Shown here: piece after piece, positions 25,598 to 36,535 of the stretch
How the letters are laid out: the number at the start of each line of letters is the position of its first letter
Numbering within the stretch: the first letter of the stretch is position 1
Assembly: GCA_027592745.1 (NCBI GenBank)
Contig: JAQCLG010000016.1
Location: 1 to 39,719 of the forward strand
Source of the DNA: Pseudomonadota bacterium
Lineage (GTDB): Bacteria; Pseudomonadota; Alphaproteobacteria; SP197
Reading direction: 5' to 3'
Length of the DNA stretch: 39,719 nt
Notes under the pieces: model-generated
Told to the model about the DNA's origin: nothing
Databases searched by the model: none
What the model saw: the letters and a program-made list of their open reading frames with translations, nothing else
Program-made: the position numbers and the translations under genes

Positions 25598-25656
25598 GCG
25601 CCCGGGCCGACACCCCTTCCCTTCCTGACACCGTCACCGAGGAGACCGACCGATGA
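25594..25656 (+). CDS. Possible 20-codon coupling ORF between flavoprotein and MttB genes
   Basis: A frame beginning MSARADTPSLPDTVTEETDR starts at an ATG overlapping the flavoprotein stop (ATGA) and stops at a TGA overlapping the MttB start (ATGA). It contains the MttB ribosome site GAGGAGA. Such a bridge could carry ribosomes across the 55-base gap. With only 20 codons, chance is quite possible. Confidence 0.3.
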   Translation: MSARADTPSLPDTVTEETDR

Positions 25657-27194
25657 GCAGCGACGCACCCGCCCGCTCCGTTCGGCGGCGCGGCGGCGCC
25701 GGCGGCAGCGCCCGCCAGAAGGGCGGCCTCGTCCAGGCGCCCCGCGGCGTACCGCACAATCCCTGGCCGCCGTTCCAGATCGTCTCGGCCGAGCAGATCG
25801 AGGCGATCCACAGCGCCTCGCTCGACGTGCTCGCGACCATCGGCATGGAGATCCTGCACGAACCTTCGCGCGCACTGCTGGCGGCCGAAGGCTGCCGGGT
25901 CGAGGGCGAAAAGGTCTACCTCGATCCGGCGATGGTCGAGGAGAAGGTCGCGCTCGCCCCGGCCGAGGTGACCCTGCACGCGCGCAACCCGGCCAACAGC
26001 GTGACGCTCAAACAGGGCAACATCGTCACTTGCGCGGTGGGCGGCCCGGCCTTTGCCACCGATCTCGACCGCGGGCGGCGCAATGCCAACTTCTCCGACA
26101 TGGAGAATTTCACGCGCCTCGTGCAGTGCCTCGACGTCATCCACATCGAGGGCGGCGGCGCCATCGAGCCGACCGACCTTCCTGCCGAGACGCGCCATCT
26201 CGACATGTACCGTGCCTTCGCCACGCTGACCGACAAACCCTGGACTGGCTACGGCCTGGGCGCCTTCCGCGCCGACGACGCCATCGACATGGCGGCCATC
26301 GCCGGCGGCGTCACGCGCGACGACATGGTCGCCCGGCCGGCCATGCTGACGGTGATCAACTCCAACTCGCCGCTGCGCCTGGACGGGCCGATGTCGGAGG
26401 GCCTGACCGCCTTCGCCCGCGCCGGCCAGCCCTTTGCCGCCACGCCCTTCACCCTGGCCGGCGCCATGGCGCCGGCGACCGTGGGCGGCGCCAGCGTGCA
26501 GCAGAATGCCGAGGCCCTGGCGATGATCGCCCTGGCCCAGTGCGTGCGCCCAGGCACACCGGTGATCTACGGAGGCTTCACCAGCAACGTCGACATGAAG
26601 ACCGGCTCGCCGGCCTTCGGCACGCCGGAATATGCCCAGGCGGTGCTGATCGGCTGCCAGCTTTCGCGCCGCTACGGCGTACCCTATCGCACCAGCAACG
26701 TCACCAGCGCCAACAGCCCGGACGCCCAGGCCGCCTACGAGTCGATGATGGGGCTGTGGCCGGCCTTCCTGGGCCAGGCCAACCTGATCAAGCAGGGACT
26801 GGGCTGGCTCGAGGGCGGGCTCACCGCCAGCTTCGAGAAGTTCATCCTGGACGCCGAGATGCTGCAGATGATGGCGGCCTTCCTCAAGCCGCCGGCGCTC
26901 GATGCCGACGCCTTCGGCGTCGAGGCGATCGCCGATGTCAGACCCGGCGGCCATTTCTTCGGTACCGCCCACACCCTGGCGCGTTACGCGGACGCCTTCT
27001 ACAGCCCGCTCCTTTCGGACTGGCGCAACTTCGAGACCTGGGAGGAGGCCGGCAGCCCGACCGCGGCGCAGAATGCCAACCGCATCTGGAAGCAGCTCTT
27101 GGCCGAATACCGCCAGCCCGCCATGGACCCCGCGACCGCCGAGGCGATCGATTCCTTTGTCGCCCGGCGCAAGGAAGAGATCGGCGCAGGTTGA
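25653..27194 (+). CDS. MttB family (non-pyrrolysine) amine methyltransferase
   Basis: A 513-residue protein of the trimethylamine methyltransferase (MttB/COG5598) family. After a basic, disordered N-terminal stretch of about 35 residues the TIM-barrel begins (ASLDVLATIGMEILHEPSRA). Conserved blocks include FTLAGAMAPATVGGASVQQN, GGFTSNVDMKTGSPAFGTPE, NANRIWKQLL and ADVRPGGHFFGTAHTL. The frame has no internal TAG, so it is not a pyrrolysine enzyme. Characterised non-Pyl members such as MtgB demethylate glycine betaine, proline betaine or carnitine with a corrinoid protein; no corrinoid partner gene is here. GAGGAGA precedes the ATG. It follows the TMADH-like gene and is probably in its operon. 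Confidence 0.9.
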   Translation: MSSDAPARSVRRRGGAGGSARQKGGLVQAPRGVPHNPWPPFQIVSAEQIEAIHSASLDVLATIGMEILHEPSRALLAAEGCRVEGEKVYLDPAMVEEKVALAPAEVTLHARNPANSVTLKQGNIVTCAVGGPAFATDLDRGRRNANFSDMENFTRLVQCLDVIHIEGGGAIEPTDLPAETRHLDMYRAFATLTDKPWTGYGLGAFRADDAIDMAAIAGGVTRDDMVARPAMLTVINSNSPLRLDGPMSEGLTAFARAGQPFAATPFTLAGAMAPATVGGASVQQNAEALAMIALAQCVRPGTPVIYGGFTSNVDMKTGSPAFGTPEYAQAVLIGCQLSRRYGVPYRTSNVTSANSPDAQAAYESMMGLWPAFLGQANLIKQGLGWLEGGLTASFEKFILDAEMLQMMAAFLKPPALDADAFGVEAIADVRPGGHFFGTAHTLARYADAFYSPLLSDWRNFETWEEAGSPTAAQNANRIWKQLLAEYRQPAMDPATAEAIDSFVARRKEEIGAG

Positions 27195-29337: not shown

Positions 29338-29547
29338 ATGTCCGACAACGTCTACAAGGTCGTCGAGATCGTCGGCTCGTCGCGTTCCAGCAGCGACGAC
29401 GCGATCCGCAACGGCATCGCGCGCGCCTCGCAGACCCTGGAGAACCTGGAGTGGTTCGAGGTTGTCGAGACGCGCGGCCACATCGAAGGCGGCACGGTCG
29501 CCCATTTCCAGGCCGTGATGAAGCTGGGCTTCCGCCTCAACGCGTGA
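29338..29547 (+). CDS. Dodecin family flavin-binding protein
   Basis: A 69-residue protein that forms hollow dodecamers storing riboflavin or FMN. The sequence MSDNVYKVVEIVGSSRSSSD, then AIRNGIARASQTL and WFEVVETRGHI, is the full dodecin pattern, with the flavin-stacking Trp at about residue 38. GGAGAG precedes the ATG. Its last 11 bases overlap the end of aroG on the opposite strand. It is a plausible flavin buffer. Confidence 0.95.
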   Translation: MSDNVYKVVEIVGSSRSSSDDAIRNGIARASQTLENLEWFEVVETRGHIEGGTVAHFQAVMKLGFRLNA

Positions 29548-30668: not shown

Positions 30669-30696
30669 AAAAAAGCCGCCAGGGTCCCCTGGCGGC
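30669..30696 (-). terminator. Intrinsic terminator in the aroG leader (attenuator)
   Basis: A 10-bp perfect stem, GCCGCCAGGG with CCCTGGCGGC (30675-30696), has a 2-base loop and is followed on the minus strand by six T (30669-30674). It lies between the leader peptide and aroG, so termination here would stop aroG expression. The 5' arm can also pair with leader bases 30750-30758 (see the leader entry). Confidence 0.92.
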
Positions 30697-30725
30697 GGAT
30701 TGGAAAGGTTCGGTGCGGGTAGCCT

Positions 30726-30809
30726 CTAGGCCGAACGGGTTCCAACCGGCGCCAAAGGCGTCGGATAGAATACGTACCAAAAGCGGTTCTGGTGGCCGGT
30801 GAGGTTCAT
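30726..30809 (-). CDS. aroG leader peptide with Phe-Trp-Tyr-Val-Phe-Tyr run
   Basis: A 27-codon ORF, ATG at 30807-30809 and TAG at 30726-30728. It begins MNLTGHQNR, then codons 10-15 (30765-30782) read FWYVFY, then PTPLAP. Five of six consecutive codons are for aromatic residues. Bases 30750-30758 (CCTTTGGCG on the minus strand) can pair, with three G-U pairs, to CGCCAGGGG at 30686-30694, which is the terminator 5' arm: a possible antiterminator formed when ribosomes stall. A second stem, GTTCGG/CCGAAC (30731-30736 with 30708-30713), lies between. The ORF sits directly after a promoter-like sequence. Very unlikely by chance in this position. Confidence 0.88.
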   Translation of the reverse strand: MNLTGHQNRFWYVFYPTPLAPVGTRSA

Positions 30810-30816
30810 GGCGACG

Positions 30817-30845
30817 GTTCTAGCGCCGCGGGAGATTGGTGACAA
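30817..30845 (-). promoter_or_regulatory. Probable sigma-70 promoter for the aroG leader
   Basis: TTGTCA (30840-30845) and TAGAAC (30817-30822) are separated by exactly 17 bases on the minus strand. Transcription would begin about at 30810, leaving almost no leader before the leader-peptide ATG. It lies 7 bases beyond the glutamine synthetase-like gene stop. Confidence 0.6.
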
Positions 30846-30851
30846 CCGGCT

Positions 30852-32195
30852 TCAATAGACGTCGAGATAGCGCCGCCGGTCCAGATCGCTGACATGGCGA
30901 CGGAAGACGTCGTCCTCGTGGCGCCGGGTCGCAACGAACCAGTCGACGAAGGCATCGCCGAACAGGCCGCGAGCCACCGGCGAGGCGTCCAGGCGATCGG
31001 CCGCGCTCCCCAGGGTGCGCGGCAGGCGGCGCTCGGGCGGCAGCGAGTCGGGGGCGGCCTCGCCCTCGAAGGCCAAGCCCGGGTCAATCCGGTTCTCGAT
31101 GCCCCATAGGCCGGCACCCAGGCACTGGGCGAGCGTCAGGTGCGGATTGGAATCGGCAGCAGGCACGCGGAACTCGACGCGGGTCGCGCCGGGCGCCCCG
31201 GTGATCACCCGCACGGCGCAGGTCCGGTTCTGTACGCCCCAGGCCGAGACGACGGGCGCCCAGATGCCCGGCACCATGCGCCGGTAGGCGTTGACGGTGT
31301 GCGAGCACATCGCCAGCGTCTCGGGGAGCAGGGTGACCAGGCCACCGACGAAATGGCGCATGGTCGCCGAGATACCCTGCGGGTCGGCGGGATCGTGGAA
31401 CAGCGCGTTGCCGTCGTCGTCCTGAAGCGAGACGTGGAGATGGCCCGACTGGCCGTTGGTCTGGTTCGACCACTTGGCCATGAAGGTCGCCATCAGCCCC
31501 TGGCGCTCGCAATGGGCCTTGGTGAAGGTCTTGAAGAGTGCGGCATTGTCGGCAGCGATCAGCCCCGGGGCGGGTTTCAGCGGCATCTCGACGCAGCCTG
31601 GCCCCTGTTCGGTATGGATCGAATCGATGCCGATGCCGAGCAGTTCCAGCACCGTTTCAAGGCCGTCGAAAAAGTCGTGCTCGATCGAGGGCACCATCGA
31701 ATAGGTGTGGTTGCCCGGCTGCCAGGATTCCAGGCCGGTGTAGTCCTTGACGCGCACGCTGGCGGGCGTCTCGCGCAACAGGAAGAACTCGTACTCGAAA
31801 CCTGCGGTGACCTGGAACCCCATGGCGCCGGCGCGGGCAAGCTGGTCCTTCAGCAGGTTGCGCGGTGCCAGGCGACCGGTCTCGCCGGCAAACTCGGCGA
31901 TGAACAGCGCCTCACCGTCGGCAAAGGGGTAGAGGCGCCCGCTCGTCGGGTCGATGGGTGCCGGGGCATCGGCCCAGGCGCCCTGGCGATAGGGCACTTC
32001 GGCGACATCCCAGTGATAGAGCACCTCGCAGAACTCGTAGCCGCCCTTGAGCAGCTTGACGAATTTCTCGGTTTCCACGCGCTTGACCCGGAACCGCGCG
32101 TCGATGTCGAAGATGCCGATGTGGACGGCCCGGATTCCCTTGGCCTCGAGCAGGCCAAGGACCTGCGCTACGGCAGCTTCCTGCCCCAGGCTCAA
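30852..32195 (-). CDS. Glutamine synthetase family protein (type III-like, possible gamma-glutamylamide ligase), TTG start
   Basis: A 447-residue ATP-dependent ligase. It starts at TTG 32195, overlapping the preceding stop as TTGA, because MSLGQEAAVAQVLGLLEAKG and IRAVHIGIFDIDARFRVKRV form the normal N-terminal domain and no ATG or GTG lies there. Catalytic blocks include GFEYEFFLLRE, EQGPGCVEMPL, MAKWSNQTNGQSGHLHVSLQ and SNPHLTLAQCLGAGLWGIEN. The C-terminus lacks the adenylylation-type loop of GlnA. The subgroup includes gamma-glutamylputrescine and N-methylglutamate/gamma-glutamylmethylamide synthetases; an amine acceptor is likely here but not identified. It is coupled to a DUF4870-like membrane protein and adjoins the PotD-like gene. 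Confidence 0.85.
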   Translation of the reverse strand: MSLGQEAAVAQVLGLLEAKGIRAVHIGIFDIDARFRVKRVETEKFVKLLKGGYEFCEVLYHWDVAEVPYRQGAWADAPAPIDPTSGRLYPFADGEALFIAEFAGETGRLAPRNLLKDQLARAGAMGFQVTAGFEYEFFLLRETPASVRVKDYTGLESWQPGNHTYSMVPSIEHDFFDGLETVLELLGIGIDSIHTEQGPGCVEMPLKPAPGLIAADNAALFKTFTKAHCERQGLMATFMAKWSNQTNGQSGHLHVSLQDDDGNALFHDPADPQGISATMRHFVGGLVTLLPETLAMCSHTVNAYRRMVPGIWAPVVSAWGVQNRTCAVRVITGAPGATRVEFRVPAADSNPHLTLAQCLGAGLWGIENRIDPGLAFEGEAAPDSLPPERRLPRTLGSAADRLDASPVARGLFGDAFVDWFVATRRHEDDVFRRHVSDLDRRRYLDVY

Positions 32196-32566
32196 CGGCT
32201 CTTCCCGCCGAACGCCCAGGAGGCCGGATCGGGCACCGACGCGCCCTGCTGCAGCCAGAGGATGCCCTTGATGCAGCGCACGATGATCCAGATGGTCGTG
32301 AGTGCGCCGAGCAGGATGCCGAGCCCCAGCAGAGGCACCGTCACCCCGGAGATGATCCCGAACAGGAGGCCGATCCAGAAGGTGCGGACCTGGAACCGCA
32401 GGTGGCTGGCCTGCCAGGCGGGCGCCTCGTTGCGCCCCAGGATCGCCATGACACCACCGATCAGCCAGGTGATGCCGGTGACGAACGACGCAAGGTAAAG
32501 AATGTAGATGGCCATGGGATAGCCCGAAGGCTCCGCCTGCACGACCTGTCTGCCGTTCTCGCTCAT
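32192..32566 (-). CDS. DUF4870 family small membrane protein
   Basis: A 124-residue protein with three hydrophobic segments (AIYILYLASFVTGITWLIGG, FWIGLLFGIISGVTVPLLGL, ILLGALTTIWIIVRCIKGI). The pattern is typical of DUF4870: an initial YILYL segment, HLRFQVRTFWI and IKGILWL. The start at 32566 (MSENGRQVV) has AGGGG 5 bases before it. It is translated in overlap with the glutamine synthetase-like gene (TTGA). The role is unknown. Confidence 0.85.
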   Translation of the reverse strand: MSENGRQVVQAEPSGYPMAIYILYLASFVTGITWLIGGVMAILGRNEAPAWQASHLRFQVRTFWIGLLFGIISGVTVPLLGLGILLGALTTIWIIVRCIKGILWLQQGASVPDPASWAFGGKSR

Positions 32567-35584: not shown

Positions 35585-36430
35585 CTACACCAGCGCCGGG
35601 CCCCTTGTTTCGTCCTGGGGCTCGACCCGGGGGCCGTAGAGCGTCCGGTTGATGGCTAGGCTGCCGACCAGTCCGGGACGCGTGTCGTAGTGGAAGATCG
35701 TCAGCAGCCGCCGACGCGCTCCCGCGACCTCGCTGACGCGGTGCAGCGAGCGTTCGCCGCGAAAGATCATCAGCGTACCGGCCGGCACCGGAATCGTCAC
35801 CACGCCGCTGCGGTCGCCATCCATGACCCGGCCGACACCCTCGTAGTTTTCGTTCCCGGGTCCGCGCAGGCGCGGGACGCATTCGAAATCGCCTCCCGAT
35901 TCGGGCTTCTGCAGCATCAGCGTGGTGGAGAACTCCGAGCCGTCGAAGTGCCAGTTCTGGCAGCCGCCCGCGCCCATCACCGAGATGTTCACCGACTGGT
36001 AGCGGCAGGCCATGGGATGGAGCGGGGGCGCGTCGAGTACGGCCTCGAGGAAGGCCGGCATGGCCGCCGATGCATAGAGCGCGCGGATGCCGTTGCCGGC
36101 CGGCACCTGGTCATAGGCGATCTGTGCCATGCGCCGGGGACTGGTGCGCAGACGGGGATGGCCGGGCGGCGGATCGGGCAGCGGCGGGTCCATGCGGCCG
36201 TAGTAGGGAGTCGCCCGGTCGATGCCCGGCCACGCACGGTCGACGAAACCCTCGACCTCCGCCGCCAGTTGCGCCGCCGTCGCCTGCAGCACGAAGCCTT
36301 CCAGCGTGGCATAGCCCCGATCCGCGATCGCCGCACGCAGGCCGGCGACCATGGCCGTGCCGGCCGGCGTATCGAGCGCATGGATCGGCCAGCGCCCCAG
36401 ATCGACGATGTCGAGACCCGCGTTCATCAT
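35585..36430 (-). CDS. HxD-type Fe(II)/2-oxoglutarate oxygenase (HalD/BesD-like fold)
   Basis: A 281-residue oxygenase from ATG 36430, with AAGGA 7 bases upstream. The iron motif HxD is QNWHFDGSEFSTTLML (about residue 175); the distal His is in ERSLHRVSEV and the 2-oxoglutarate Arg in GARRRLLTIFHYD. The pattern with YQSVNISVMGAGGCQNWHF matches proteins often annotated HalD/BesD family halogenase. Halogenases replace the Asp with Gly; here Asp is kept, so hydroxylation is expected. The DAO-type FAD oxidoreductase lies head-to-head 105 bases away, and amino acid or amine substrates are likely. Confidence 0.85.
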   Translation of the reverse strand: MMNAGLDIVDLGRWPIHALDTPAGTAMVAGLRAAIADRGYATLEGFVLQATAAQLAAEVEGFVDRAWPGIDRATPYYGRMDPPLPDPPPGHPRLRTSPRRMAQIAYDQVPAGNGIRALYASAAMPAFLEAVLDAPPLHPMACRYQSVNISVMGAGGCQNWHFDGSEFSTTLMLQKPESGGDFECVPRLRGPGNENYEGVGRVMDGDRSGVVTIPVPAGTLMIFRGERSLHRVSEVAGARRRLLTIFHYDTRPGLVGSLAINRTLYGPRVEPQDETRGPALV

Positions 36431-36535
36431 GGAGATGTCCTTTCCCTGCATCGGCAGTCTTGGCACCGTGCCGGGAATTGGCAAGACTGCGCTGACCGCC
36501 ATCGACGGTACGCCCCCCAAGGATCGGACCACCCG

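Follow-up and report, generated by a model that had tools for sequence, protein, structure and literature searches.

The window, a stretch of 39,719 nucleotides spanning positions 1 to 39,719 of contig JAQCLG010000016.1 from a Pseudomonadota bacterium, encodes a type I-alpha DAHP synthase, AroG, preceded by a short leader region on the same minus strand (Table 1). The protein scores 501 bits with TIGR00034 (cut-off 173) and also matches PF00793, and its nearest solved sequences are those of Phe-regulated DAHP synthase. A preliminary description of this DNA had placed a TTGTCA-N17-TAGAAC promoter, a 27-codon ORF reading Phe-Trp-Tyr-Val-Phe-Tyr at codons 10-15, and a "perfect 10-bp terminator" with six U ahead of aroG. 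The sequence bears out the promoter match, the ORF, the downstream gene and the six U; the terminator stem, however, is 9 bp long. Five of the six codons in the run are aromatic, and a gap of 29 nt separates the leader stop codon from the terminator hairpin. Between the stop codon of the upstream glutamine-synthetase-like gene and the -35 hexamer lie 6 nt; at the position of this hexamer, relatives have GTGACA. We assessed the likelihood of such an arrangement by dinucleotide shuffling of the 295-nt region. An ORF with at least five aromatic residues in seven appeared in 3 of 4000 shuffles, and in none of them together with a terminator. By the same measure (at least 5/7, at most 60 aa), the leader is the sole aromatic-rich ORF on either strand of the window. 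The combination of aromatic ORF and terminator is not due to chance.

Table 1 Features of the aroG leader locus and other genes of the window.
Feature	Position	Strand	Details
Trimethylamine methyltransferase MttB homologue	25653-27194	+	PF06253, 607 bits
aroG, type I-alpha DAHP synthase, 362 aa	29537..30625	-	ATG 30625, stop 29537-29539; SD GGAG ahead of ATG
Intrinsic terminator GCCGCCAGG-GGAC-CCTGGCGGC-TTTTTT	30669..30696	-	GC-rich 9-bp stem 30696-30688 / 30683-30675; GGAC loop; six U 30674-30669
Segment 3, CGCCAGGGG	30686..30694	-	common to the predicted antiterminator (with 30758-30750) and the terminator 5' arm
Predicted inner antiterminator partner (CGAAC..TTCCAA.CCG)	30696..30713	-	between leader stop and terminator; nascent-RNA folding
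Predicted inner antiterminator arm (CGGTTGGAA..GTTCGG)	30731..30748	-	ORF end; nascent-RNA folding; partner 30713-30696
Segment 2, predicted antiterminator 5' arm, CCTTTGGCG	30750..30758	-	Pro-Leu-Ala codons; near copy of terminator 3' arm
Putative sensing codons 10-15, TTT TGG TAC GTA TTC TAT	30765..30782	-	Phe-Trp-Tyr-Val-Phe-Tyr
Leader ORF, 27 codons, MNLTGHQNRFWYVFYPTPLAPVGTRSA	30726..30809	-	ATG 30809, TAG 30728-30726
-10 element TAGAAC	30817..30822	-	17-nt spacer after -35; 7 nt to leader ATG
-35 element TTGTCA	30840..30845	-	from the sequence
Glutamine-synthetase-like gene, upstream neighbour	30852-32198	-	PF00120; stop codon 30854-30852
Halogenase D match	35588-36532	-	PF23169; weak 2OG-Fe(II) oxygenase families

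To place the leader in a broader context, we collected 185 aroG loci, comprising 80 named loci, those from the genomes of relatives, class and phylum, and extra upstream stretches. One procedure was applied to all, and 183 had usable upstream sequence. At 126 of the 183, an ATG ORF rich in aromatic codons precedes a terminator. Among the named loci, leader and terminator were present at 13/13 in the Hyphomicrobiales, 7/7 in the Lysobacterales and 29/31 in the Burkholderiales; the loci examined from Rhodocyclales, Nitrosomonadales, Enterobacterales and Vibrionales (the last represented by one locus) had none. Since candidate ORFs were chosen by aromatic density, single weak cases may be wrong, but there is no doubt about the signal of the family as a whole. 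Leaders of this kind include FYFWYYGFPMPLAEEGVRSP from Xanthomonas, YFWYFSYDSSLAAGGSRSI from Bradyrhizobium, KFYFYFFWHLRPLADREG from Burkholderiaceae and AFYFYFWFSVPGGREASA from Comamonadaceae. The peptides have a median length of 25 residues, and the terminator starts a median of 23 nt past the stop codon. Both the aromatic run and the terminator, whose conservation in relatives the preliminary description had proposed as a check on its reading, are kept in alpha-, beta- and gammaproteobacteria. ORF, promoter and terminator hold the same order and spacing before aroG in these three classes, although the sequences have diverged. This conservation, together with the failure of the shuffles to yield an aromatic-rich ORF along with a terminator, makes it scarcely credible that the terminator merely ends the glutamine-synthetase-like gene and that the ORF is incidental, an explanation suggested by the position of that gene on the same strand and so close to the -35 hexamer.

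We also searched genomes with an RNA model built from 29 leaders. One strong match per genome (98-114 bits) was obtained in 6 of 190 genomes of the class, and among 61 relatives strong matches fell in exactly the five that carry aroG; all five contributed to the model, so the informative part of this result is the absence of strong matches elsewhere. One genome of the search, G200, was not among the model sequences. Matches of 21-28 bits in other genomes were taken as noise.

The preliminary description had further proposed that one leader reads Phe, Trp and Tyr together, and this holds for most leaders of the relatives. Of 110 distinct peptides, 83 contain all three residues, 26 contain Phe and Tyr, and one contains Phe and Trp. 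Trp, a rare residue, is thus present in 84 of the 110, in all three classes. Codon choice in the leaders is also distinctive. Phe is encoded by TTT at 299 of 380 leader positions (79%), compared with 87 of 788 positions (11%) in aroG at the same loci. The median GC content of these loci is 66%, and the preference is a reversal of GC-rich usage. Tyr is encoded by TAT at 48% of leader positions and 28% of aroG positions, and 70 of the 380 leader Phe codons are TTT immediately before Trp. Slow codons would sharpen a ribosome stall; avoidance of structure in the aromatic run is another possible cause of the TTT choice. With Phe, Trp and Tyr all read within a single peptide, the leader would behave as an OR gate placed at the pathway's first common enzyme.

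A different reading of these compositions keeps the attenuator and assigns control to one or two residues only, for example Phe, or the first-read Phe10 and Trp11, with the others as passengers. A parallel is the C. glutamicum aroR-aroF attenuator (Neshat et al. 2014, as reviewed in PMC11802643), a described DAHP-synthase attenuator that the preliminary description overlooked. It too has a short aromatic leader peptide, AroR, before a DAHP synthase gene. It belongs to an actinobacterium and differs in reading Phe-Tyr-Phe with no Trp; its transcription rises on Phe limitation and is reported not to respond to Tyr (PMC11802643). Control by one or two residues also agrees with the 26 distinct leaders without Trp and with the strong preference for the rare Phe codon TTT. 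The retention of Trp in 84 leaders across three classes, and the frequent placement of TTT directly before Trp, argue against passenger status. We regard control by fewer residues as possible, with clearly less than even weight.

The preliminary description had suggested that a 9-bp pairing of 30758-30750 with 30694-30686 (CCTTTGGCG : CGCCAGGGG), including three G-U pairs, would block the terminator. The pairing is at that position, with two G-U pairs rather than three. Taken in the window alone, this 2:3 alternative pairing does not reach significance (shuffle p = 0.36); it is convincing only at the family level, where it corresponds to the conserved antiterminator core of the relatives and the proposed blocking role is supported. 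A segment of the ORF, usually starting 7-12 nt past the last aromatic codon, is a copy of the terminator 3' arm with a GGCGG core, and so pairs with the terminator 5' arm. Complementarity of this ORF arm to the terminator 5' arm has a mean score of 18.5, compared with 8.3 in shuffles, and the terminator stem itself is kept over the 110 distinct leaders with changes in its pairs. The equivalent of the core falls in each of the three codon phases (82, 18 and 10 of 110 leaders), being read as Pro-Leu-Ala in many lineages, as Pro-Gly-Gly in Comamonadaceae and as Arg-Trp in Devosia. This indicates that the RNA, not the peptide, is conserved.

Covariation was counted with the GGCGG core as the only anchor. 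The base next to the core and its partner in the terminator arm form A-T in 52 cases, G-C in 18 and T-A in 2; pairs outside the Watson-Crick set were A-C (9), G-T (7, a G-U wobble) and a few others. Over 101 loci this gives a Fisher p of 4e-8, and a tree-aware count yields three independent changes on supported branches, too few for significance in a sign test. The covariation is thus strong as a pattern and weak as an event count. For a protector 1:2 pairing upstream of the aromatic codons, a hairpin that in E. coli trp causes termination when the leader is not translated, complementarity was not above shuffles over 104 leaders (Fisher p = 0.16). The MSAK.. leaders of Burkholderiaceae show TCCGCCA : TGGCGGA complementarity, which is suggestive of such a pairing.

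These arms also bear on whether leader translation might instead alter access to the aroG ribosome-binding site, leaving termination unaffected. SD-like motifs lie near the aroG start at 84 of 110 loci, as such translational control would call for. Two features point to termination: 126 loci have a strong stem, rich in GC and with a U tract, and the antiterminator arm is a copy of the terminator 3' arm. We judge control at the level of aroG translation very unlikely.

We then modeled the folding of the leader RNAs. In the window, the predicted antiterminator is one long hairpin, with an outer stem (30758-30750/30694-30686) and an inner stem (30748-30731/30713-30696) that together enclose the leader stop codon; the preliminary description had found the core of this structure and overlooked the longer hairpin. 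Equilibrium folding with ribosome footprints was tried as a test of the switch and set aside: it always favored the terminator, and the states could be told apart only by folding the nascent intermediate. For the window RNA at full length, the fold at equilibrium is the terminator at any ribosome position (P = 1.00). Thus, the decision has to fall during transcription, as in classical attenuators, and in these models the switch must work only kinetically. For the nascent intermediate, RNA was modeled up to just before the terminator 3' arm with a ribosome footprint in place. With the ribosome on the aromatic run, the antiterminator had P > 0.5 in 107 of 110 leaders; this number was 68 without a ribosome and 59 with the ribosome at the stop codon. 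Its probability was higher in the stalled state than at the stop codon by more than 0.2 in 59 of 110 leaders, and the opposite was seen in none. For the window the values are 0.80 stalled and 0.19 at the stop codon, where the ribosome would mask the inner arm (30731..30748). In about half of the leaders, the modeled antiterminator persists despite a ribosome at the stop codon. Sequence and folding together point to a mutually exclusive antiterminator that shares the terminator 5' arm and would be freed by stalling.

The position of the promoter suggests where the leader transcript begins. We scanned 0-60 nt upstream of each leader ATG for the best -35/-10 pair. It ends 6-9 nt ahead of the ATG in 67 of the 110 distinct leaders, and the mean promoter score peaks at 7 nt (6.2, compared with about 4.2 elsewhere). 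An SD-like tetramer precedes the ATG in only 1 of 110 leaders, and the preceding base is C in 84%. Since the -10 element ends 6-9 nt before the ATG in most leaders and SD motifs are absent, the leader mRNA is probably leaderless, with a predicted start at or within about 2 nt of the ATG. The preliminary description, correct as to the promoter, had overlooked this. For some leaders of the Burkholderiaceae and Oxalobacteraceae, the best-matching promoter is instead 25-37 nt upstream of the ATG; these leaders may have a short 5' UTR without an SD motif. Leaderless transcripts were reportedly also found for C. glutamicum aroR-aroF by Neshat et al. 2014. The S. meliloti trpL-trpE(G) system is likewise an alphaproteobacterial attenuator, and its transcript starts at the leader ATG (PMC7298713), a start that is only predicted for the aroG leader. 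It senses Trp only, controls trpE(G), and its products act in trans (PMC7298713), whereas the leader described here holds three aromatic residues and precedes aroG. That attenuators from distant phyla share a leaderless start suggests that this mode of initiation is well suited to attenuation. The trans roles of the leaderless S. meliloti attenuator RNA rnTrpL, and of peTrpL, raise the question of whether the short RNA and/or peptide released from the aroG leader, predicted to be leaderless as well, also act elsewhere (PMC7298713). From one lineage to another the C-terminus of the peptide shifts phase while the RNA core stays the same; this speaks against a conserved function of the peptide, and we consider trans action unlikely.

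Taken together, a run of aromatic codons, a terminator ahead of the gene, and a gene that belongs to the biosynthesis of the putatively sensed amino acids are the sequence hallmarks of an attenuator. They support the attenuation reading of the preliminary description, and from them we infer the mechanism in vivo. We put the probability that aroG is controlled by a ribosome-mediated transcription attenuator at about 0.88. Transcription would begin at or beside the leader ATG, and a ribosome would follow RNA polymerase through the 27 codons. When charged tRNA for Phe, Trp or Tyr is scarce, the ribosome would stall on codons 10-15, leaving 30758-30750 and the remainder of the ORF free to form the long hairpin with RNA up to 30686. 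This antiterminator would take the terminator 5' arm, and polymerase would continue into aroG. When Phe, Trp and Tyr are all plentiful, the ribosome would reach the stop codon and mask the inner antiterminator, the 9-bp terminator would form, and a short RNA of about 140 nt would be released.

Ribosome-mediated attenuation is a long-known class of mechanism. Leaders of the ilvGMEDA type read several end products of a branched pathway in one peptide; their residues are branched-chain, in contrast to the aromatic residues at aroG. The E. coli pheA, pheST and trp attenuators share with the aroG leader the use of codons for the end product and an arm common to antiterminator and terminator, and differ in sensing one amino acid each and in having SD-led leaders. 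Attenuators before the Vibrio aroA-I-alpha(Y)-tyrA operon appear in the Merino list, as cited in PMC1173090. From that citation, they too precede a type I-alpha DAHP synthase gene, and they differ in being structure predictions only, for a gammaproteobacterial Tyr-linked operon; a Phe-Trp-Tyr leader was not found at the one Vibrionales locus examined. Rfam, including its trp, phe and his leaders, T-box and riboswitches, gave no match at the gathering threshold and only weak ones below it. One of these overlapped the Burkholderia sRNA BcKCsr7 and was taken as chance, this match being absent from the Burkholderia aroG leaders. Our literature search, which covered few subscription journals, brought up no account of a leader reading Phe, Trp and Tyr ahead of a DAHP synthase gene in proteobacteria. 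We give about even odds to the fuller proposal that these leaders form an undescribed family of type I-alpha DAHP synthase attenuators in alpha-, beta- and gammaproteobacteria. Such a family would be characterized by a leaderless mini-mRNA, rare TTT Phe codons together with Trp and Tyr codons, a three-input OR gate on entry to the shikimate pathway, and an antiterminator arm kept as RNA while drifting through all three phases.

The attenuator would provide a testable rule for flow into aromatic synthesis in many soil, plant-associated and opportunistic bacteria (Bradyrhizobium, Mesorhizobium, Xanthomonadales and Burkholderiales). In contrast, E. coli uses three DAHP synthase isoenzymes, and control of their genes is attributed to TyrR and TrpR (PMC5343134). 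For annotation, the gain is a leader ORF and an RNA family missing from Rfam. The leaders also form a large natural series in which the RNA arm is constant while the peptide frame shifts, allowing a clean separation of selection on RNA from selection on peptide.

A survey of the class found type I-alpha aroG in no more than 13 of the 385 alphaproteobacterial genomes, and the nearest relatives of the window AroG, alphaproteobacterial kin aside, are Xanthomonas and Dyella enzymes. Because of this rarity and this relationship, the gene and its attenuator are likely to have spread horizontally. The same layout precedes an aroG homologue on plasmid 1 of a laboratory strain, Paracoccus denitrificans PD1222 (L213:1198-1317), with the leader MSHRMPCTISFYWFRCPQRSRV, a -10 element TATGGA 6 nt ahead of the ATG and a terminator CCGCTGG..CCGGCGG. 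In the source genome there are two DAHP synthases with no relationship to each other: the window AroG, which is of type I-alpha, and an enzyme of type II (contig C86:23117-24430); no aromatic leader was found before its type II DAHP synthase gene, trpE or pheA. A DAHP synthase homologue with about 43% identity to the window AroG is present on many plasmids of Escherichia, Klebsiella and Salmonella.
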